From Mucilaginibacter gracilis (GTDB lineage: Bacteria; Bacteroidota; Bacteroidia; Sphingobacteriales; Sphingobacteriaceae), in assembly GCF_003633615.1 (NCBI RefSeq), contig NZ_RBKU01000001.1, positions 4,402,001 through 4,466,000 on the forward strand: a DNA stretch of 64,000 nt, read 5' to 3'. The notes under the pieces were generated by a model. It ran no database searches. It was not told where the DNA came from and worked only from the letters and a program-made list of their open reading frames with translations. Below are positions 41,478-50,616 of the stretch, in pieces; position 1 is the stretch's first letter, and each line of letters begins with the position of its first letter. A program made the position numbers and the translations under genes.

Positions 41478-42380
41478 CTACTTTGCTATCTCATAGTCAT
41501 AAGCCGCTTTCGCAATGCGGGCGATAACCGATTCGCGGGCAGGCAGATCAACGGCCGAGTTGGTGACAAATACGGCTACGGCCAAATGTTTACCGTTTGG
41601 CAATGTGATAATACCCACATCATTTGTAGCAGCCGCTATTCCGTCGTTTGTCCCGGAACGGCCTGTTTTATGCGCTACAATGGTTCCCGCCGGTAGCAAA
41701 CCCTTAATTTGATTTGGGCCGGTAATGGTTGCTTCCATTATCTTCCATAAATAATCGTGGCTGGTTTTGGATAAGAAATTAGGTTTGGTAGCAATATCCA
41801 GCAAGCGGATCATCTCTTTGGGCATCGTCCAGTTAGTGAACTGTACGTCCCAGGCTTGGGCCATTTGAAATTCGGATGCTTTTATTGCTATTTGCTTGAT
41901 ACCAAAACTATGCATATAAGCATCTACAACAGCTGTACCGCCAAGGGTTTTGAGTAGAATGTCGCACGCATCGTTATCACTAAGCGATACCATGTAGCTT
42001 AATAATTCCCTTATCGCGATGCTCACATTTCCTTCCGGGAATTTATCGCGAAGCGGGCTATATGTTTCAGGCAGGTCACTTTTATCGATAGGTATAAGTT
42101 GATCTAAAGTCAGCATACCCTCGTCCACCTGGTGCAAAACAGTAATCGCTATCGGGAACTTCATCACGCTTTGCATAGGCAAATGCAGCTGGCCGTTGTA
42201 GGAGAGGGTATCACGATTTTCGATACCCAGCATGGCAAAACCTACTGCGCCTTTGGCATCTTTAGCTATCTCTTTTATCTGTGCACGCAGCAAAGAATCT
42301 GATTGTGCAAACACAGTAGAAGAAGTAAAAATGCTGAAAATAATTAAGCCGACTAACTTTTGCATTTGCCAATAACTCAT
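41478..42380 (-). CDS. Class A beta-lactamase, PER/VEB/CfxA-like (subclass A2)
   Basis: Periplasmic serine beta-lactamase with signal peptide (cleavage near residue 26, VFAQS). All active-site motifs are present: SVMK (Ser71/Lys74), SDN (134-136), a probable general-base Glu169 in ASEFQM, and KTG (237-239). The segments TGPNQIKGLLPAGTIVAHKTGRS and VQFTNWTMPKEM resemble PER/VEB-type extended-spectrum enzymes rather than TEM/SHV. Length 300. It sits between hisIE and a WD40 gene with no mobile DNA beside it, so it is likely intrinsic to the chromosome. Hydrolysis spectrum is not deducible. Confidence 0.9.
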   Translation of the reverse strand: MSYWQMQKLVGLIIFSIFTSSTVFAQSDSLLRAQIKEIAKDAKGAVGFAMLGIENRDTLSYNGQLHLPMQSVMKFPIAITVLHQVDEGMLTLDQLIPIDKSDLPETYSPLRDKFPEGNVSIAIRELLSYMVSLSDNDACDILLKTLGGTAVVDAYMHSFGIKQIAIKASEFQMAQAWDVQFTNWTMPKEMIRLLDIATKPNFLSKTSHDYLWKIMEATITGPNQIKGLLPAGTIVAHKTGRSGTNDGIAAATNDVGIITLPNGKHLAVAVFVTNSAVDLPARESVIARIAKAAYDYEIAK

Positions 42381-42404: not shown

Positions 42405-42992
42405 CTACTTATGTCTCGACTCTAAATTCTTAGCTATCACTTCCAAGTTTAAGTTCTTCTCGCGAAGCAATACCAGCAAGTGAAACATCAAATCAGAAGC
42501 TTCGTTTATCAGGTCGGTTTCGGTTTCGGCTAAGGCAGCAATTACGGTTTCGACACCTTCTTCGCCCACCTTTTGGGCTATCTTATTCAAGCCCTTTTTG
42601 CGCAACTTATTTACGTATGAACCTTCTGACGGATTGTCATACCTTTCGTTTATAATGTTCTGTAATTCAAATATAAAGTTATGGTTATATGAAGTTTTAA
42701 AGCAGTTTCTTTCACCTGTGTGGCAGGTTGGTCCCTCGGCTTTAACTTTTATCAAAAGCGTATCGTTATCGCAATCTAAAGCCATGCTTTTTACATGCAA
42801 GTAATTTTTGCTACTCTCGCCTTTTGTCCACAAACGGTTTTTAGTGCGAGAGAAAAAAGTGACTTTATTTTCGCTCACGGTTTTATCGTAAGCTTCCTGG
42901 TTCATATAACCCAGCATCAGTACTTCAAGGGTTTGGTCGTCTTGTATTACAACCGGCACTAAGCCGTTGCCTTTGTTAAAATCTATATTCAT
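42405..42992 (-). CDS. hisI: Bifunctional phosphoribosyl-AMP cyclohydrolase / phosphoribosyl-ATP pyrophosphatase
   Basis: HisIE fusion (195 residues) catalysing the second and third steps of histidine synthesis. The N-terminal HisI domain (1-110) has MLGYMNQEAYDKT, FFSRTKNRLWTKGESS, the metal-binding DCDNDTLL and the zinc site GPTCHTGERNCF. The C-terminal HisE domain (115-195) has GLNKIAQKVGEEGVETVIAAL and LINEASDLMFHLLVLL. Last gene of the his operon, separated from hisF by a family B palindromic element. Confidence 0.96.
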   Translation of the reverse strand: MNIDFNKGNGLVPVVIQDDQTLEVLMLGYMNQEAYDKTVSENKVTFFSRTKNRLWTKGESSKNYLHVKSMALDCDNDTLLIKVKAEGPTCHTGERNCFKTSYNHNFIFELQNIINERYDNPSEGSYVNKLRKKGLNKIAQKVGEEGVETVIAALAETETDLINEASDLMFHLLVLLREKNLNLEVIAKNLESRHK

Positions 42993-43005
42993 GTTTTTAT
43001 ATTTT

Positions 43006-43080
43006 AGCCCCCTCTAAATCTCTCCCGGTTGGGTAGACTTTAAAAAGTCCTCCCTTCCGGGGAGGGTTGGGTGGGGCTTA
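43006..43080. repeat. Palindromic element family B, copy 2 (hisF-hisIE junction)
   Basis: Inverted ends AGCCCCCTCTAAATC... (from 43006) and ...GTTGGGTGGGGCTTA (to 43080). The right arm and loop are translated as the last 12 codons of hisF, whose stop codon (43040-43042) lies in the loop. Confidence 0.8.
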
Positions 43081-43831
43081 TTCTTACTTCAATACCCTTA
43101 TTCTTCAACACAGCCTTTAAATCGGGTATCAATATCTCGCCATAATGAAATACCGAAGCCGCCAGTGCCGCATCAACATTAGCCTGTTCAAATACATCAA
43201 CAAAATGCTGTACCGAACCTGCGCCGCCAGACGCAATAACCGGGATATGCACGGCATCGTTTATGGTTTTTAAAAAGCCGCAATCAAAACCTGCTTTGGT
43301 ACCGTCGTGATCCATTGAGGTTAACAGTATCTCACCTGCGCCGCGGCTTTCGGCTTCGCGTATCCAATCAAAAGTTTCTTTTTCTGTGGGTATGCGCCCA
43401 CCGTTTAAGTAAACTATGTTTTTCCCGTCGTTGTGGCGGGTATCAACCGCAACCACCACAAACTGCACACCAAAAGCTTTGGCTAATTGGTCAATAAGAG
43501 CCGGGGTGCGCACCGCAGCCGAGTTGATGGATACTTTATCAGCCCCGGCGTTTAAAAGCGCGTCAGCGTCTTCTATTGCGTTTATACCACCACCTATAGT
43601 GAAGGGGATGTTAATGTTGCGCGCAACGGCCTTTACAAGTTCCACCATTGTTTTACGGCGTTCGTGCGTAGCTGTAATATCTAAAAACACCAATTCATCG
43701 GCGCCTTGCTGCGAGTAGTTCCAGGCCAGTTCAACCGGGTCGCCGGCATCACGCAGGTCAACAAAGTTCACACCTTTTACGGTGCGGCCATCTTTAACGT
43801 CGAGGCAGGGAATGATTCTTTTTGAAAGCAT
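43040..43831 (-). CDS. hisF: Imidazole glycerol phosphate synthase cyclase subunit
   Basis: TIM-barrel cyclase that, with HisH, makes imidazole glycerol phosphate and AICAR. The catalytic Asp11 is in [15 protein letters not shown], the second Asp in VVVAVDTRH (about residue 130), and the phosphate loops GGGI and ASGGAGS are present. The native protein should end at GIEVRI. Here 12 extra residues [12 protein letters not shown] follow, encoded entirely by the family B palindrome at 43006-43080. Active-site motifs are complete, so the tail is probably tolerated. Confidence 0.95.
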
Positions 43832-43841
43832 AATATTAGTG

Positions 43842-43923
43842 TGTCATTGCGAGGAACGAAGCAACCGCACATAGGCAGAGCAGCCTTGTATAGTCTGCGG
43901 TTGCTTCGTTCCTCGCAATGACA
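43842..43923. repeat. Palindromic element family C, copy 2 (hisA-hisF junction)
   Basis: Perfect 28-bp inverted repeat, arms 43842-43869 and 43896-43923 (TGTCATTGCGAGGAACGAAG... and complement), 26-nt loop. It fills the junction between hisA (stop 43931) and hisF (start 43831). In the his mRNA it would form a very stable hairpin without a U tract. Confidence 0.88.
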
Positions 43924-43930
43924 ATTTTAT

Positions 43931-44680
43931 TTATATTGAAATCAAAGCATCTAAATTCCAGTGTTTAATTTCTTCAACAGTAATGCGGTTTTCGTAGATG
44001 GCTTTGCCTACCACGCACGATTCTACTTTGATTTTGTTCAGCTTCTCAATATCTTTCATGGAACTTACACCACCCGAAGCTATCAGTTTGATAAAAGGGG
44101 AATGGTCTAACAGTTTTTCGTAAAGCTCAATACCTGCGCCGCCCAGTTTTCCGTCTTTATTAATATCTGTACATAAAAACCGGAAGAAACCGAGGTTCAG
44201 ACACTTATCAACATAATCCATTAGCTTAATTGGCGAGCTTTCCATCCAGCCCGAGTATTTAATTACCTCGTCTAAAACATCTATAGCTACTACAATTTTT
44301 TCTGTTTTACCGTCTTTGCTGCCCACTTCTCTACTAAGTTCACTTAAAAAATCGGGGTTGGTTATGGCCTGTGTTCCTACAATTACACGGTGAACGCCTG
44401 CACCAAGCAGCTCCTTAACTTTTTCGATACTGCGTACACCGCCGCCGTACTGAATTTTCATATCTGTTTTTTTGATGATGTTGAACAGATATTCCTGATT
44501 GCTAAAATCGCCTTTAGCACCGTTTAGGTCGATGATGTGGATCAATTCTGCACCGTTTGAGCGGTATGTTTCAATCATCTCTTCTAAAGAAACATCGTAG
44601 CTGGTTATTTGCTGATAATCACCTTCGCGTAAGCGAACTACCTTTTGGTCGAGAATATCAACAGCGGGGATAATGTACAT
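43931..44680 (-). CDS. hisA: ProFAR isomerase
   Basis: TIM-barrel isomerase of the fourth histidine step. The catalytic Asp8 is in IIPAVDILDQKVVRLREGDY, the phosphate-binding motifs are QYGGGVRS and IASGGVSS, and the second Asp lies in FLCTDINKDG (about residue 170). Length 249 is normal and the C-terminus is regular. It begins 9 bp after hisH, with no palindrome at that junction. Confidence 0.96.
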   Translation of the reverse strand: MYIIPAVDILDQKVVRLREGDYQQITSYDVSLEEMIETYRSNGAELIHIIDLNGAKGDFSNQEYLFNIIKKTDMKIQYGGGVRSIEKVKELLGAGVHRVIVGTQAITNPDFLSELSREVGSKDGKTEKIVVAIDVLDEVIKYSGWMESSPIKLMDYVDKCLNLGFFRFLCTDINKDGKLGGAGIELYEKLLDHSPFIKLIASGGVSSMKDIEKLNKIKVESCVVGKAIYENRITVEEIKHWNLDALISI

Positions 44681-44689
44681 TGTATTGAA

Positions 44690-45280
44690 TTAAATATTTG
44701 CAAAGTTAGTTAAAAGATGCTCGCCAAACGGACCTGATTTTTCGGGGTGAAATTGTACACCAAAAAAGTTATCTTTCCGAATAGAAGCCGAAAACGGCAA
44801 TGTATAATTAGTTGATGCTAAAGTATATAAGGGATTATGCTCAATATAATACGAATGCACAAAATAAAAGTGCGAACCTTGCGGGATATTTTTAAAAAGC
44901 GGGTTATCCAACTCGGGATAAACCTGATTCCAACCTGTATGGGGCACTTTAAATTGGGCGCTATCTTTAAACCTCAATGTTTTTACGGGTATAATATCCA
45001 ATAAACTGGAATCCCCCTCTTCGGAATAGGATGTTAGCAATTGCATACCTACACAAATACCTAAAGTTGGCTTTGTAAGTTTCTTTATTACAGGCACTAA
45101 ACCGGTTTGCTCAAGCTTATTCATGGCAGCACCTGCATGGCCCACGCCAGGTATAATATACCGGTCGTACTGCTCAAAATCGGCTTCGGTATGTATCATG
45201 CCGTAACTAATGCCCAACCTGTCTAAAGCTGAGGTTAATGAAAATATGTTGCCGGCTCCGTAGTAAATAATACCTGTCAT
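44690..45280 (-). CDS. hisH: Imidazole glycerol phosphate synthase glutaminase subunit
   Basis: Class I glutamine amidotransferase supplying ammonia to HisF. The nucleophile is Cys76 in LGICVGMQLL, with the oxyanion strand PGVGHAGAAM and the His-Glu pair in VQFHPEKSG. The frame continues 12 codons upstream, but that part is encoded by a family D palindromic element. MTGIIYYGAGN is the conserved start, giving 196 residues. Confidence 0.95.
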   Translation of the reverse strand: MTGIIYYGAGNIFSLTSALDRLGISYGMIHTEADFEQYDRYIIPGVGHAGAAMNKLEQTGLVPVIKKLTKPTLGICVGMQLLTSYSEEGDSSLLDIIPVKTLRFKDSAQFKVPHTGWNQVYPELDNPLFKNIPQGSHFYFVHSYYIEHNPLYTLASTNYTLPFSASIRKDNFFGVQFHPEKSGPFGEHLLTNFANI

Positions 45281-45288
45281 TTTAATCA

Positions 45289-45391
45289 GAATCAAGAACC
45301 AAGATGCAAGATGCAAGACATCTTCCTACTCAATTCAGTTTTATAAATTCTACAAAAGTCTTGATTCTTGCATCTTGACTCTTGCATCTTA
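45289..45391. repeat. Palindromic element family D, copy 2 (hisB-hisH junction)
   Basis: Inverted repeat of GATGCAAGA/TCAAGAATC units (left arm 45289-45323, right arm 45355-45391). Its right arm touches the hisB stop codon (TAA, 45392-45394 minus strand), and its left arm lies about 9 bp upstream of the hisH start. Related to the element inside lysA. Confidence 0.8.
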
Positions 45392-46540
45392 TTAAAGTAC
45401 TCCCTTGGTACTTGGCAAAACCATATTATTCACATCCCTGCGCACGGCCATTTTAATGGCTTTGGCGAAGGCTTTAAATATGGCCTCAATTTTATGATGT
45501 TCGTTTTGGCCTTCGGCTTTGATGTTAAGGTTGCATTTTGAAGCATCGGAGAACGACTTAAAGAAATGGTAAAACATTTCGGTAGGCATTTCGCCAATTT
45601 TTTCGCGTTTAAATTCTGCATCCCACACTATCCAGTTGCGGCCACCAAAATCAATGGCTACCTGTGCCAGGCAATCATCCATAGGCAAACAAAATCCGTA
45701 CCGTTCTATTCCGCGCTTATCGCCTAATACAGTAAGGAATGCTTCACCCAGTGCTATGCCTGTATCTTCAATCGTGTGATGTTCGTCAATATGTAAGTCT
45801 CCTTTGGCGGTAATATCCAAATCAATACTGCCGTGGCGGGCTATCTGATCTAACATGTGATCGAAAAAATGCAGCCCCGTTGATACTTTGGCATCGCCTT
45901 TACCATCCAAATTTATTTTGATAGCAATATCGGTTTCCTTGGTTTTGCGCACATGTTCTGTTGTGCGTTCGCCCAATTTTAAAAACTCGTATATTTTTTC
46001 CCACTCGGTAGTTTCAACGGCTACGGTTTCTTTAATGGCAGCCTGTTGTTCTGTGGTAAACTCGGCTCCGCCTAAATTGCTGTTGTTATTTAACCAGATG
46101 GCTTTTGCACCTAAATTTTTGGCTAAAAGCACATCGTTCAACCGATCGCCAATGGTGAATGAATTTTTAAGATCGTAAACTTCTTCGTCAAAATATTTTG
46201 TGAGCAACGCGGTGCCGGGTTTGCGTGTTGGCGCATTATCACGGGCAAAGGTGCGGTCTATAACGTAATCGCTAAAGGTTATGCCCTCGTTAGCCAAGGT
46301 TTTAATCACAAAATTTTGTACCGGCCAAAAGGTATCTTCGGGATATACAGCCGTACCTAAACCGTCCTGATTGGTTACCATTACCAATTCAAAATCAAGT
46401 TCGGCAGCAATTTTGGGCAGGTATTGTAACATGTGCGGATAAAACTCCAATTTAGCAAACGAGTCTATCTGTTCGTCGGCAGGTTCGGTTATCAGCGTAC
46501 CGTCGCGGTCAATAAAAAGTATTCTTTTCAGCTTATTCAT
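45392..46540 (-). CDS. hisB: Bifunctional histidinol-phosphatase / IGP dehydratase
   Basis: Fusion of an N-terminal HAD phosphatase (about 1-170; nucleophile Asp11 and Asp13 in [10 protein letters not shown]) with C-terminal imidazoleglycerol-phosphate dehydratase (about 185-382). The dehydratase Mn-site motifs [28 protein letters not shown] and the terminal [18 protein letters not shown] are intact. Length 382 is as expected for the bifunctional form. It starts 30 bp after hisC, with no palindrome between them. Confidence 0.96.
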
Positions 46541-46570
46541 TCCTGTTTAAAGGTAGTGTTGAAATGGTTA

Positions 46571-47689
46571 TTATCCTAAATTTATTGTTTTAAGCGTATT
46601 AATCAGGGTTATATTTTCTTCGGGCGTACCAACAGTAATGCGCAAACAACCTTCGCAAAGCTCAACTTTTGATCGGTCGCGCACAATGATGCCCTGGCCA
46701 ACCAAATGATTGTATATCGCTTTAGCATCGGTGGTTTTAACCAGGATGAAGTTGGCATCAGACGGGTAAATATCCAGCACAAAATCAAATTGCTTTAACC
46801 ATAAAACCAATTTATCGCGCTCGGCCAGCGTTTGCTTTATCCAGCTATTTACCTGGTCAACATTCTGTAAAGCCTCTAAAACCAGTTGTTGTGTAGCCTC
46901 GTTAACGTTGTAAGGCGGTTTAACGCGGTTCATCACCTCAATAACTTCTTCGCTTGCAAAGGCCATCCCAAGGCGTAAACCTGCAAGTCCCCACGCTTTC
47001 GATAGCGTTTGTAATACCACCAGGTTAGCATATTCTGTTAACTCCTGTATAAAGGTTTTTTGGCGACTAAAGTTAATATAAGCCTCATCAACAATAACCA
47101 AACCGTTAAAGTTAGCCAGCAGCGTTTCCACATCGGTGCGGTTGATGGAGTTACCGGTAGGGTTATTTGGCGAGCAGATGAATATCATTTTGGTATGCTC
47201 ATCAATAGCCTGGGCAATACCTTCCATGTTAAGCTGATAATCGGGTGTAAGGTTTACCTTGCGGGCCTCTACATCATTAATATTGGCCGATACCTGATAC
47301 ATGCCATAAGTAGGCGGTACGATGATAACATTATCAACCCCAGGGTTACAAAAGCTGCGGAAAAGTATATCGATAGCCTCGTCGCTGCCGTTACCTAAAA
47401 ATATATTGCGAGTTGGTACGCCTTTTATTTCCATCAAGCGCTTTTTAACGGCGTACTGCATAGGGTCCGGGTAACGATGATATTGCTCGGTTAGCGGCGA
47501 GCCAAAAGCATTTTCGTTGGCGTCAAGGTAAACACTGGCCTCGCCCTGAAACTCATCGCGTGCGGAGGAGTAGGGTGTGAGGTTGCGGATGTTCTCTCGT
47601 AGAAGCCCCCCTAGCCCCCTAAAGGGGGAGTTTTGATTAGCAAGGTTGCTACTGCTTGATGATTCGTTATTCGAAATATCTTGTGTCAT
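46571..47689 (-). CDS. hisC: Histidinol-phosphate aminotransferase with repeat-derived N-terminus
   Basis: PLP fold-type I transaminase. YLDANENAFGSP, the CSPNNPTGN loop, VDEAYINFS and the PLP lysine in LQTLSKAWGLAGLRLG identify it. Native HisC would begin close to LLRENIRNLTPYSSARDEF. Here about 28 residues precede that, including SPFRGLGG (residues 21-28), encoded by the arm of a family B palindrome (47604-47630). The catalytic part is complete (372 residues in total). It is the only family B arm besides hisD's that is read in this frame and orientation. Confidence 0.95.
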   Translation of the reverse strand: MTQDISNNESSSSSNLANQNSPFRGLGGLLRENIRNLTPYSSARDEFQGEASVYLDANENAFGSPLTEQYHRYPDPMQYAVKKRLMEIKGVPTRNIFLGNGSDEAIDILFRSFCNPGVDNVIIVPPTYGMYQVSANINDVEARKVNLTPDYQLNMEGIAQAIDEHTKMIFICSPNNPTGNSINRTDVETLLANFNGLVIVDEAYINFSRQKTFIQELTEYANLVVLQTLSKAWGLAGLRLGMAFASEEVIEVMNRVKPPYNVNEATQQLVLEALQNVDQVNSWIKQTLAERDKLVLWLKQFDFVLDIYPSDANFILVKTTDAKAIYNHLVGQGIIVRDRSKVELCEGCLRITVGTPEENITLINTLKTINLG

Positions 47690-47778
47690 GGTAATAATTC
47701 TTTTACTGTAATCAATTCCAGTCCCATCAGGACAATCAGTCAGGACAATCAGTTCCCCCTTTAGGGGGTTAGGGGGCT
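47604..47778. repeat. Palindromic element family B, copy 3 (hisD-hisC junction)
   Basis: Inverted arms at 47604-47630 (inside hisC, AGCCCCCCTAGCCCCCTAAA...) and 47754-47778 (overlapping the hisD stop codon) bracket the hisC start codon. Between the arms lies a 13-bp tandem duplication CAGGACAATCAGT (47728-47753). Confidence 0.85.
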
Positions 47779-49106
47779 CTTCGTATTGTCACCGCATTTT
47801 TATGCGCATGCAAGCCCTCCAATTCGGCTAAAATCTCTACGGTTGGCCCGATGTTCTGGATGCCATCGGGCGTGATATGCTGGAAGGTTATCTTCTTCAC
47901 AAACGAATCAACCGATACGCCCGAATATGCCCGCGCGTAAGCACTGGTTGGCAGGGTATGGTTAGTGCCGGATGCGTAATCGCCAACGCTTTCGGGGGTT
48001 AGGTTTCCTAAAAATACCGACCCGGCGTTAATGATGCTGTTTACTATCGACTGCCAATTTTCGGTAGCCAGTATTAAGTGCTCCGGTGCGTAAAGGTTGC
48101 TAAACTGCATAGCCTGTTGCAAATCATTAACCAAAACCGAATAGGAGTTTGCTATTGCTTTTCCGGCTATTTCGGCTCTTGGTAAAACGGGTAATTGTTT
48201 TTCCAAAGCTTTGTTAACGGCATCAATTATATTTTGTGACGTAGCTACTAATATAGACTGACTATCGGCACCGTGCTCGGCCTGGGCCAATAAATCGGCA
48301 GCCACAAACTCAGGGTTGCTGGTTTCATCGGCAATTACCAATACTTCCGATGGGCCCGCGGGCATATCAATGGCGCAGGTAGTGGTTGATTGGATGATGG
48401 TTTTGGCTTTGGTTACAAACTGGTTTCCGGGACCAAATATTTTATCAACCGCCGGTATAGTTTCGGTACCATAAGCCATAGCGGCAATGGCTTGCGAACC
48501 TCCCGCAAGGTAAATTTTATCTATCCCAAGCAATTGGCAAACGTAAGCTATAAATGCATTTACCTTACCGTTTTTTTGTGGCGGCGAGCAAACCACTATT
48601 TGGTGGCAACCTGCAATTTGCGCCGGAATGCCCAACATGAGCAATGTGCTTGGTAAAACGGCGCTACCACCGGGTATATATAAACCAACACGTTCAATAG
48701 GCCTTAACTCGCGCCAGCAGGTAACGCCGGGCATAGTTTCAACCTTGTCTTCGGTTTTGAGTTGCGTTTGGTGAAATTTTTTGATGTTTTGATAAGCAGT
48801 TTGCAAAGCCTGTTTTTGCTCCGGCAAGAGGGCGGTAGCCAGTTCTTCAAGTTCGGCTTTATCTAAATACAGCTTTTGCAATTCAACATGATCAAATTTT
48901 TGTGCGTAGCCAAGTAAAGCATTATCGCCATGCTCACGCACATTGCTTATTACATCTTCAACAACAGCGCGTATCTCGTTAGCCGGATCAACGTTGCGCT
49001 GAACGAGCGAGCGAAGTTGGGCAGCGGAAAGCTCACCATACGTATAGCCCCCTAGCCCCCTGAAGGGGGAACTATTGTCCTCAATTTTTTTGTTTATGCT
49101 ATTCAT
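47769..49106 (-). CDS. hisD: Histidinol dehydrogenase with repeat-derived N-terminus
   Basis: Zn-dependent enzyme oxidising histidinol to histidine in two NAD steps. Characteristic segments are YIPGGSAVLPSTLLML, AGGSQAIAAMAYGTETIPAVDKIFGPGNQFV, the metal-site DMPAGPSEVLVIAD and LAQAEHGADSQ, and YAPEHLILAT. Residues 13-20 are SPFRGLGG, the same octapeptide as in HisC, encoded by a family B palindrome arm (49046-49071). The conserved protein begins about residue 21. At the other end the last two residues and the stop (AP-TAA) also come from a family B arm. Length 445. Confidence 0.95.
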   Translation of the reverse strand: MNSINKKIEDNSSPFRGLGGYTYGELSAAQLRSLVQRNVDPANEIRAVVEDVISNVREHGDNALLGYAQKFDHVELQKLYLDKAELEELATALLPEQKQALQTAYQNIKKFHQTQLKTEDKVETMPGVTCWRELRPIERVGLYIPGGSAVLPSTLLMLGIPAQIAGCHQIVVCSPPQKNGKVNAFIAYVCQLLGIDKIYLAGGSQAIAAMAYGTETIPAVDKIFGPGNQFVTKAKTIIQSTTTCAIDMPAGPSEVLVIADETSNPEFVAADLLAQAEHGADSQSILVATSQNIIDAVNKALEKQLPVLPRAEIAGKAIANSYSVLVNDLQQAMQFSNLYAPEHLILATENWQSIVNSIINAGSVFLGNLTPESVGDYASGTNHTLPTSAYARAYSGVSVDSFVKKITFQHITPDGIQNIGPTVEILAELEGLHAHKNAVTIRRAP

Positions 49107-49163
49107 TGCATTAATCTTTTATAGCCACTTGCATATTCTCCCCCTTTAGGGGGCCGGGGGGTT
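49046..49163. repeat. Palindromic element family B, copy 4 (hisG-hisD junction)
   Basis: Inverted arms 49046-49071 (inside hisD) and 49138-49163 (overlapping the hisG stop codon TAA, 49162-49164). They would pair almost fully in the mRNA and place the hisD start codon in the loop. Confidence 0.85.
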
Positions 49164-50013
49164 AAGCAATTATCTTTTCAATTGGCATAACCACTATGCC
49201 TTGTGCACCTGCTTGTTTTAGCTTGCTTATTTTATCCCAAAAGTCGCGTTCGGGGATAACGGTATGAACGGCCACCCAGTCAGCTTCGGCCAATGGTACT
49301 ACCGACGGGCTTTTCACTCCCGGAAGCAGGGCCAATACCTGGGCTAAATTATCGCGACTAACGTTTAGTACTACATACTTGGTTTCTTTGGCGCGCAATA
49401 CTGATTGTATACGGGCAATCAGTTCTTCAATCAAGTCTGGCCTGTCAACATTTTTATTGCCAATCAGGATAGCTTCGGACGTCATGACATCGCTAAACGG
49501 TTTTAACCCGTTGCTCTTTAAGGTTCCGCCGGTTGATACAATATCAAAAATGGCATCGCTTAAACCCAGGCCGGGAGAAATTTCTACGGAGCCGGATATC
49601 ATGCGCACATCGGCTTTGATATCGTTTTTAGCCAGGTATTTTTTAAGGATGGCAGGGTAGGATGTAGCAATGGATTTACCATTAAAATCCGACAGTTGCT
49701 GAATATCGCTGCTATTGGGGATGGCAATTTTTAGGGTGCATTTGCCAAAGCCCAGGCGTTGCAGGTAATTTACATCAACTTCGGTTTCCTCAATCATGTT
49801 TTCGCCTACGATGCCCAGGTCGGCAATGCCATCCTGAACATACTCGGGAATATCATCGTCGCGAAGAAAAAGAATTTCCAGAGGGAAATTTGATACCGGC
49901 GAAATAAGGGAGCTTTTGTAGTTCTCGAAGTTTAATCCGCAGTTTTTTAGTAACTCAACAGATTTTTCATTAAGGCGCCCCGATTTCTGGATCGCTATTT
50001 TAAGTGTTTTCAC
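49162..50013 (-). CDS. hisG: ATP phosphoribosyltransferase, long form
   Basis: First committed enzyme of histidine synthesis, joining ATP and PRPP. It is the long (HisG-L) form: catalytic domains 1-210 with IAIQKSGRLNEKSVELLKNCG, LGIVGENM and the PRPP loop DIVSTGGTLKSNGL, and a C-terminal regulatory domain of about 75 residues (VLALLPGVKSPSVVPL...AQGIVVMPIEKI) that normally binds histidine for feedback. No HisZ is needed. First gene of the operon. A promoter and a histidine-rich leader peptide lie upstream. Confidence 0.96.
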   Translation of the reverse strand: MKTLKIAIQKSGRLNEKSVELLKNCGLNFENYKSSLISPVSNFPLEILFLRDDDIPEYVQDGIADLGIVGENMIEETEVDVNYLQRLGFGKCTLKIAIPNSSDIQQLSDFNGKSIATSYPAILKKYLAKNDIKADVRMISGSVEISPGLGLSDAIFDIVSTGGTLKSNGLKPFSDVMTSEAILIGNKNVDRPDLIEELIARIQSVLRAKETKYVVLNVSRDNLAQVLALLPGVKSPSVVPLAEADWVAVHTVIPERDFWDKISKLKQAGAQGIVVMPIEKIIA

Positions 50014-50083
50014 AAATTTGGTATTAAGGGTAGTAATGGACTAAACGGGTTATTATTGCTAATAAAAACATACAGTAAATGCG

Positions 50084-50101
50084 TATCGTTACTTGGTACG
50101 A
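50084..50101 (-). promoter_or_regulatory. Leader hairpin overlapping the his leader-peptide stop codon
   Basis: ATCGTTACTTGGTACGAT can fold with seven pairs and one bulge (ATCG-TAC with GTA-CGAT). A ribosome at the end of the leader peptide would block it, while one stalled at the His codons would leave it free, so it could be a regulatory hairpin. Confidence 0.45.
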
Positions 50102-50139
50102 TGGTGCAGATGCAGTTGATGTATGTGAAAACCGTTCAT
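50089..50139 (-). CDS. Histidine operon leader peptide
   Basis: A 16-codon ORF, MNGFHIHQLHLHHRTK-stop, between the his promoter and hisG. Five of its residues are histidine, all within nine codons (positions 5, 7, 10, 12, 13). It begins about 15 nt after the predicted transcription start and ends 75 bp before hisG. Such a cluster immediately ahead of the his operon is the hallmark of attenuation by ribosome stalling. An 18-bp imperfect dyad (50084-50101) overlaps its stop codon. I see no classic intrinsic terminator with a U tract before hisG, so the exact mechanism is open. Confidence 0.75.
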   Translation of the reverse strand: MNGFHIHQLHLHHRTK

Positions 50140-50161
50140 GTTTACTTGAGGTAAGTTGCGG

Positions 50162-50190
50162 CAAATATAACAAGATAATTGAAAAAACAA
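50162..50190 (-). promoter_or_regulatory. Promoter of the his operon
   Basis: On the minus strand TTG (50190-50188), 18 bp, then TATATTTG (50169-50162), an exact match to the Bacteroidota -7 consensus. The predicted start of transcription is about 15 nt upstream of the leader-peptide ATG. Confidence 0.6.
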
Positions 50191-50279
50191 GAGCCTCACC
50201 TAAATCCTCTCCAAAGGAGAGGACTTTGAAACCAAGCACATCAAGAACCCTCTCCTTTGGAGAGGGCAGGGTGAGGCTC
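50191..50279. repeat. Palindromic element family B, copy 5 (merR-hisG junction)
   Basis: Inverted arms of about 32 bp (50191-50222, GAGCCTCACCTAAATCCTCT..., and 50247-50279). Its end lies 1 bp from the merR stop codon (50281-50283), and it sits just upstream of the his promoter. It may insulate the two transcription units. Confidence 0.85.
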
Positions 50280-50280
50280 C

Positions 50281-50616
50281 CTACATCTGATCCCGCACCT
50301 CCAGCAAAAACTGCTTTAAAGTTTCTAACGAATTGATAACAGCCTGGTTATCTTTGGTTACACCTAAGTTTTCGCGCAGGTAATCTTTTGCACCTTGCAG
50401 GGTATAGCCTTTTTCGTTAATGAGGTTAAAAATAATTTTGAGGTTCGCAATATCTTCGGGAGTGAAGTAGCGGTTGCCCTTTTTATTTTTTTTGGGTTGC
50501 AGAATATCAAATTCCTTTTCGTAAAACCGCAACAACGATTGGTTTACATCAAACATGGCCGAAACTTCGCCCATAGTATAGTACAGCTTGCTAATGTCGC
50601 GTTCTTTGTAAGGCAT
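50281..50616 (-). CDS. MerR-family transcriptional regulator
   Basis: A 111-residue regulator. The N-terminal winged-helix MerR domain (KLYYTMGEVSAMFDVNQSLLRFYEKEFDILQPKKNKKGNRYFTPEDIANLKIIFNLI) shows the R-Y/F-Y-E turn and the wing, followed by a short helical tail and no obvious effector domain or metal cysteines. This compact type is common in Bacteroidota. A TATCTTTG box (minus strand, 50628-50621) ends about 5 bp before the ATG, so the transcript is nearly leaderless. It is divergent from alaS. Target genes are unknown. Confidence 0.88.
   Translation of the reverse strand: MPYKERDISKLYYTMGEVSAMFDVNQSLLRFYEKEFDILQPKKNKKGNRYFTPEDIANLKIIFNLINEKGYTLQGAKDYLRENLGVTKDNQAVINSLETLKQFLLEVRDQM

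Follow-up and report, generated by a model that had tools for sequence, protein, structure and literature searches.

Attenuators built on His codons are classical in Proteobacteria and are also known in Firmicutes, and the abstract of Vitreschak et al. 2004 reportedly mentions Bacteroidetes. The proteobacterial hisL attenuator corresponds to the Rfam family His_leader (RF00514, the number being the one given in the accessible text of PMC9413887), and the same text states as a possibility that a structure at the ribosome-binding site takes the terminator's place, adding that such attenuators exist. A passage from 2010 holds that leader-peptide systems were unshown outside Proteobacteria and Actinobacteria before the Firmicutes case of its own authors, and it names ermC as a leader acting on translation (PMC2965389). 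Within the Bacteroidota, "strong clues" that leader peptides attenuate amino-acid operons were reported in Flavobacterium psychrophilum, together with a structured 5′ element before hisG that is conserved in Flavobacteriaceae (accessible part of PMC9723704), and a Bacteroid-trp motif is listed in an excerpt of PMC2864571. According to the sections available of PMC6847099, initiation in Bacteroidetes proceeds without Shine-Dalgarno pairing; mRNA structure between −20 and +20 tunes it, as does A at positions −3, −6 and −12/−13.

The his leader of Mucilaginibacter gracilis and its relatives is best read as a sensor of known kind with a new output arrangement. As in proteobacterial hisL, a short ORF with clustered His codons lies between the promoter and the his operon, with hairpins that ribosome position could alter; unlike hisL, the family has neither intrinsic terminator nor antiterminator and no Rfam match, and instead a predicted helix joins the leader start to the start region of hisG. 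It resembles the translational attenuators that sequester a ribosome-binding site in having structure over the start region of the first gene in the terminator's place, but the helix pairs two start regions and the ribosomes of this phylum work without Shine-Dalgarno use (PMC6847099 and PMC9976891, accessible parts). While ermC senses translation slowed by a drug, the family leader would sense an amino acid. The LEU element of Actinobacteria likewise has a leader ORF with a codon run, a base stem at the translation start and no terminator; however, its codon run forms a pseudoknot with the Shine-Dalgarno box (PMC1262725, text available in part), whereas here the 5′UTR and codons 1–3 pair 5′ of hisG, the partner being the leader start region and not the His-codon run. 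No description of a terminator-less his leader in Sphingobacteriaceae or Bacteroidetes was found in the literature searched, most subscription journals lying outside its coverage.

The window analyzed is a stretch of 64,000 nucleotides (contig NZ_RBKU01000001.1, positions 4,402,001 to 4,466,000), and its his operon shows the NCBIfam gene order hisG, hisD, hisC, bifunctional hisB, hisH, hisA and hisF, followed by a HisIE-like ORF recognized by eye (42405–42992), as shown in Table 1. The arrangement TTG-18 nt-TATATTTG is presumably the promoter type of the phylum, and transcription would start near 50155, just 5′ of the leader ORF. The leader, MNGFHIHQLHLHHRTK, comprises 16 codons, with its ATG at 50139, its TAA at 50091–50089 and His at codons 5, 7, 10, 12 and 13, and 75 nt separate its stop from the hisG GTG at 50013. 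The promoter, the 16-codon ORF with five His in nine codons and the 75-nt gap described in the initial annotation all agree with these coordinates, and the observation of a histidine-rich leader holds. Among 951 ATG ORFs of 8–40 codons in the window, the leader is the one that contains at least five His in nine codons, and when the window was resampled 20 times with an order-2 Markov model, no such cluster appeared. Across the genome (6.66 Mb), the leader is the single site of the in-phase pattern H.H..H.HH; the reversed control pattern likewise has one occurrence.

Table 1. Coordinates of the his leader region and operon within the window; helices P1 to P4 are predicted.
Feature	Position	Strand	Basis
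Promoter, Bacteroidota-type: TTG 50190–50188, 18-nt spacer, TATATTTG 50169–50162	50162..50190	-	Sequence
P1 5′ strand: 5′UTR and leader codons 1–3, including the start codon	50132..50146	-	RNAduplex, swap tests, compensatory changes
His-rich leader ORF MNGFHIHQLHLHHRTK, including stop	50089..50139	-	Sequence, conservation, rarity
P2 5′ arm ACAUACA, inside the first His codons	50120..50126	-	MFE; counterpart in 40 relatives
P3 hairpin AUCGU/ACGAU (8-nt loop), last leader codons and stop	50085..50102	-	MFE; 8 bp in most relatives
P2 3′ arm UGUAUGU, 3′ of the leader stop, followed by a short U-run	50068..50074	-	MFE; relatives
P4 position, weak AU hairpin UUAUUA/UAAUAA	50050..50065	-	MFE; relatives
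P1 3′ strand, pairing with the leader start region; ends 18–19 nt 5′ of the hisG GTG	50032..50048	-	RNAduplex, swaps
hisG, first gene of the operon, GTG start	49162..50013	-	TIGR00070, 193.9 bits against a cut-off of 75.75
hisD, hisC, hisB, hisH, hisA, hisF, HisIE-like ORF	42405..49106	-	NCBIfam (hisD to hisF); by eye (HisIE-like)

Several other elements were observed around the operon. Directly 3′ of it lies an ORF resembling a class A beta-lactamase by eye (41478–42380), and upstream of the promoter an ORF at 50281–50616 is MerR-like by eye, with no NCBIfam match at 1e-10. A long imperfect inverted repeat (50185–50284) lies between the end of this upstream ORF and the his promoter, and its Rfam matches are chance-level microRNAs. 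A GC-rich palindrome of 23 nt, CCCCCTAGCCCCCTAAAGGGGGA or its complement, is repeated four times in and between hisC and hisD (47607–47629, 47754–47776, 49048–49070 and 49139–49161); two of them are read in frame as SPFRGLGG near the HisC and HisD N-termini, and the HisF tail PTQPSPEGR looks related to this repeat.

The leader was then compared across relatives, for which labels beginning with f and g denote the family and genus groups of the tool, f1 being the family and g1 the genus of the window; Mucilaginibacter is placed in Sphingobacteriaceae by NCBI. The Mucilaginibacter group comprised 80 loci from a hisG search (75 titled Mucilaginibacter and five only Bacteroidetes or Sphingobacteriaceae bacterium) and 30 loci of the window's genus, two sets that overlap in species and hold 81 distinct leader-to-hisG sequences; two of the 110 loci end 20 nt before hisG and could not be assessed. 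A His-rich ORF is located 115–135 nt upstream of hisG in all 108 assessable loci, so the cluster whose absence from close relatives had been named as the main ground for dropping the idea is present throughout. The stretches that separate the His codons differ freely in residue type and in length, as selection on the His codons predicts. Among the loci with at least 170 nt upstream, 107 of 107 carry TATATTTG (103) or TATCTTTG (4) in the corresponding position. Within the group, the window copy (L001) and its four closest relatives (L002–L005) diverge most. In the rest of the family, the leader was detected in 68 of 69 loci from 17 other genera, the exception being L192, and the genera g6 and g9 are without hisG. 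Elsewhere in the phylum, a leader with an ATG or GTG start and at least three His in 10 codons was obtained in 53 of 69 loci, the call being doubtful in f9, f19 and f27 because the ORFs are long, and none was found in f10, f11, f13, f15–f18, f23, f24, f26, f28, f29 and f33 (one or two loci each).

An intrinsic terminator was defined as a stem of at least 6 bp with at least three GC pairs and a U-run, located between the leader and hisG. By this measure, GC-rich terminators are absent from all 176 family loci, that of the window included, and the antiterminator that a classical attenuator requires has no counterpart in the family, as there is no terminator to exclude. The remark in the initial annotation that no intrinsic terminator is obvious is thus borne out family-wide, and its reading of a terminator-less His-codon attenuator that may differ from the enterobacterial model, with control of hisG translation or Rho named as examples, gains support from the leader (108/108) and the missing terminator (0/176). 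The his leaders of other Bacteroidota lie in the same place, but 33 of the 53 leader-bearing loci carry a GC-rich terminator, a low count because the scan misses bulged stems and loops longer than 9 nt. By family, terminators were present in f14 (10/10), f4 (12/14), f2 (4/4), f3 (2/2), f5 (1/2), f8 (1/4) and f22, f27 and f32 (1/1 each), with none in f21 (0/10), f19 (0/3) and f9 (0/1). The mean pairing of the leader tail with the terminator 5′ arm was −16.0, −13.6, −12.9 and −13.2 for f2, f3, f4 and f14, respectively, against −9.0, −6.4, −7.0 and −6.2 with shuffled tails, and two of the three f14 loci shown individually pair at the shuffled level; the his leaders of these four families look like classical attenuators.

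The same genomes offer an internal contrast in their trp operons. A Trp leader, TGGTGGCA, was recognized upstream of trpE in nine of 15 Mucilaginibacter genomes, and in eight of these nine, including the window's genome, it is accompanied by a strong GC-rich terminator. At the trpE locus of the window's own genome (L279, C1:2121949-2122386), the Trp leader MIQISNNLYWWHHIVAAG is followed by a strong terminator, which makes it a classical attenuator. These genomes therefore rely on terminators at trp but do without them at his. The regions upstream of ilvB and leuA in the 15 genomes gave no recurring leader under loose criteria, which does not count as a negative since the first gene of the ilv operon was not located.

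Individual folds of many relatives share a common plan of four predicted helices, with P1 joining the leader start to the region before hisG, P2 pairing the early His codons with a GUAUG stretch past the stop, P3 as a hairpin over the final leader codons, and P4 between P2 and the P1 3′ strand. The dyad noted earlier over the leader stop is present and has the same position as the P3 hairpin kept in relatives. In most relatives P4 is a conserved hairpin, GUUUC-UACGY-GAAAY, and it is the most conserved non-coding stretch, the core of its stem being invariant and its UACGY loop almost so; its stems differ among genera with the pairing kept (GUUUC:GAAAC, GCUUC:GGAGC, GUUUUG:CAAAAC and UGUUCUG:CAGAGCG). 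The leader RNA of the window copy by itself is not unusually stable against shuffles (z −0.2), and for this reason the case for structure rests on comparison. RNAalifold returned no structure from the raw alignment, owing to gaps; from the trimmed alignment, or from 31 diverse sequences, it recovered P2, P3 and P4 but missed P1, because changes in length put its 3′ strand out of alignment. Across 40 Mucilaginibacter-group sequences, P1 (five pairs), P2, P3 and P4 had 91.2% of cells paired, compared with 25–49% when slid, in an alignment scored with a structure from one of its own rows, which favors the unslid register. Two-sided changes were counted in 24 cells of these sequences, against 8.8 when shuffled, and the outer five pairs of P1 have changed on both sides in four. 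In addition, 60 of 62 leaders fold more strongly than their synonymous recodings do on average (mean z −1.26, with −1.65 for L001), which indicates a moderate contribution of codon choice to structure.

A search with the P4 motif gave 26 matches in 61 family genomes, 25 of them just 5′ of hisG (positions compared by eye), against seven for the reversed control and none in the window's genome; the lone match away from hisG is at G089:C63:113614-113628. The P4 palindrome could also be a DNA operator, but a general operator is made less likely by the covariation of the stems together with the loop between them and by the in-transcript position, with 25 of 26 matches before hisG. At Rfam gathering thresholds, with the His leader included, there were no matches in the window or in 12 loci, and at E up to 10 the region 49900–50300 gave no leader family except a chance-level Pseudomonas rpsL leader. 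The 5′UTR of most Mucilaginibacter-group loci (e.g., L086) also harbors a small hairpin UAUAGU...ACUAUA, and since UAUAGU is found again in the stretch before hisG, both could compete for ACUAUA.

Because RNAalifold misaligns it, P1 was tested by partner swapping, in which the leader-start region was paired with the post-leader region by RNAduplex and partners were exchanged among loci. With one locus from each of 17 genera, the own partner gave −13.5 kcal/mol and swapped partners −8.7 (sd 0.67), none of 300 swaps being as good. A matched test in 12 other families was not significant (own −13.3, swapped −12.4, sd 0.9, 52/300), the low absolute energies there coming from GC-rich terminators; an earlier control in f4, f14 and f21, with another window and within-family swaps, was insensitive and was replaced by this matched test. 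Within the Mucilaginibacter group, 24 leader-start types gave −11.9 with their own partner and −10.3 (sd 0.48) when swapped, with 0/400 as good. Compensatory pairs in P1 include AUGAACGG:CCGUUUAU, AUGAUCGG:CCGAUUUAU and AAAAUGG:CCAUUUU. The P1 of the window copy has −11.3 kcal/mol, equaled by four of 100 shuffles and six of 38 foreign partners, and by swap ranking P1 is weak or absent in g3, in most g5 and g12 loci and in two g4 loci. In 46 strong cases, the median distance from the end of the 3′ strand to the hisG start is 11.5 nt. These comparisons point to a conserved helix adjoining the hisG start, by which the start of the first gene could be occluded.

The start codon of hisG was assigned mechanically: of the ATG, GTG and TTG codons in frame as far as the profile start, the last one was taken. 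Family loci (n = 176) have GTG in 83, TTG in 79 and ATG in 14 cases, so that 162 of 176 have GTG or TTG, against 48 ATG, four TTG and one GTG in the 53 loci outside the family, counts that are not independent because the genera are related. In 13 of the 14 ATG cases, which belong to g4, g5 and g12, the spacer exceeds 100 nt and P1 cannot adjoin hisG; the weak start codon therefore goes with the short, P1-bearing spacer. Most loci have a spacer of about 55–90 nt, structured in the predicted fold. One g4 locus, L118, has about 320 nt between leader and hisG and a TTGAAA resembling a hisG start at the usual distance from the leader; it and other g4 loci resemble the outcome of an insertion that moved hisG to a new ATG.

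The effect of leader ribosomes was modeled by masking their footprints and computing the cost of unpairing hisG from −25 to +13. Over 63 loci of 15 genera, the cost was 7.7 kcal/mol for the free RNA and 7.6 with a ribosome at the leader stop, and a stalled ribosome (mean over the His codons) gave 7.0, a small effect in the expected direction, below the stop state in 12 of 15 genera (p 0.01). When another ribosome occupied the leader start behind the stalled one, the cost fell to 4.7 kcal/mol, lower in 14 of 15 genera; however, a ribosome at the stop together with one at the leader start gave an equal drop (4.65 kcal/mol). Occupancy of the leader start is therefore what matters, the model alone shows no histidine specificity, and such specificity would need slower clearance of the leader start. 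The window copy shows no change or a reversed sign (free 3.75, stop 3.70, stalled 3.72 and queue 4.45 kcal/mol), with 3.06 kcal/mol for a ribosome stalled at the first codon of the cluster. In other families, masking shifts the cost by at most 0.4 in f4, f21 and f2, and by a drop of 1.6 in f14.

Built on the leader, the missing terminator, P1, P4 and the weak start codon, all seen on comparison of the loci, the mechanism we propose is a His-codon attenuator whose output would have moved from termination to the initiation of hisG translation. Transcription would begin just 5′ of a His-rich ORF of 16–20 codons. When histidyl-tRNA is plentiful, the leader would be read fast and the RNA would close into a three-way fold, in which P1 would link the leader start region to a stretch ending about 4–18 nt 5′ of the hisG start, P2 and P3 would form within the leader, and P4 would form between P2 and the P1 3′ strand. 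Closed P1 would occlude the landing site of hisG, a gene with a weak start (GUG/UUG), and so repress it. When histidine is short, ribosomes would slow on the His codons and following ribosomes would hold the leader start, so that the 5′ strand of P1 would be occupied and hisG freed, giving a response to histidine; untranslated hisG mRNA may also be lost through Rho. Since the modeled effect is weak and non-specific, we hold translational control to be the likeliest output at about an even chance, and infer its direction. With somewhat less confidence, short of an even chance, we suggest that an ancestral terminator-type his attenuator was rebuilt in Sphingobacteriaceae as a switch of translation independent of Shine-Dalgarno pairing, in which one helix would join two start regions, hisG initiation from its weak start codon would depend on ribosome traffic over the His codons, queued ribosomes included, and the P4 loop might offer an additional point of contact.

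Other readings of the same leader were weighed against translational control. Rho-dependent attenuation, in which the histidine-dependent position of the ribosome would decide whether Rho catches RNA polymerase before or within hisG, fits the lack of an intrinsic terminator in leader or spacer and has a precedent for terminator-less leaders in the Mycobacterium cys leaders (PMC1262725, text available in part). However, the short, structured spacer of most loci speaks against it, and Rho alone leaves unexplained why a helix joining the leader start to the start region of hisG is conserved; the position of this helix next to the hisG start favors translational control, so far as sequence can tell, and we regard Rho as the main output as rather unlikely, though it may act in series with translational control. 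Slightly less probable still is classical attenuation by weak AU-rich terminators, formed by P4 with a U-run in some genera and by P2 with the U-run at 50068–50064 in the window, where the scan gave a weak candidate hairpin of 5 bp with one GC pair ending at that U-run. Hairpins of 5–7 bp with a U-run do occur in 31 of 176 family loci, being three of 108 in the Mucilaginibacter group (L001 included) and 28 of 68 in the other genera, mainly in g11 (9/10), g15 (7/10) and g18 (5/6); but even a weak hairpin is missing in 145 of 176, the same genomes have strong GC-rich terminators for trp, and P4 is followed by AUAACAACC in most Mucilaginibacter.

The fold might also be mainly an element that binds a protein or ligand, with the His ORF secondary or a relic. 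The strong conservation of P4 fits this, as does the LEU element, a structured leader in which mutation of the codon run has little effect (PMC1262725, accessible passages); yet the His codons persist family-wide while neighboring codons change, His leaders recur in families without P4, and the window copy lacks the P4 motif, so that we consider it improbable. As for a chance His cluster with no regulatory role, the modest fold energy is the one point that would agree with it, and the conservation of the leader refutes it, with the rarity of the cluster also against it, leaving it a negligible likelihood.

If translational control is true, the his attenuator would have changed its output stage from a transcription stop to a translation gate with the His-codon sensor kept, and it would have done so in a phylum without Shine-Dalgarno pairing, where translational switches are little understood. 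The analysis further provides an annotation for a short ORF and describes an RNA element that Rfam does not contain. The leaders of family f21 (L141–L143, L147, L155–L157, L163, L166 and L167) differ in shape (VHHAHHGHHH) and combine the lack of a GC-rich terminator with a pyrimidine-rich spacer and an AUG-start hisG; they possibly represent a third output type.
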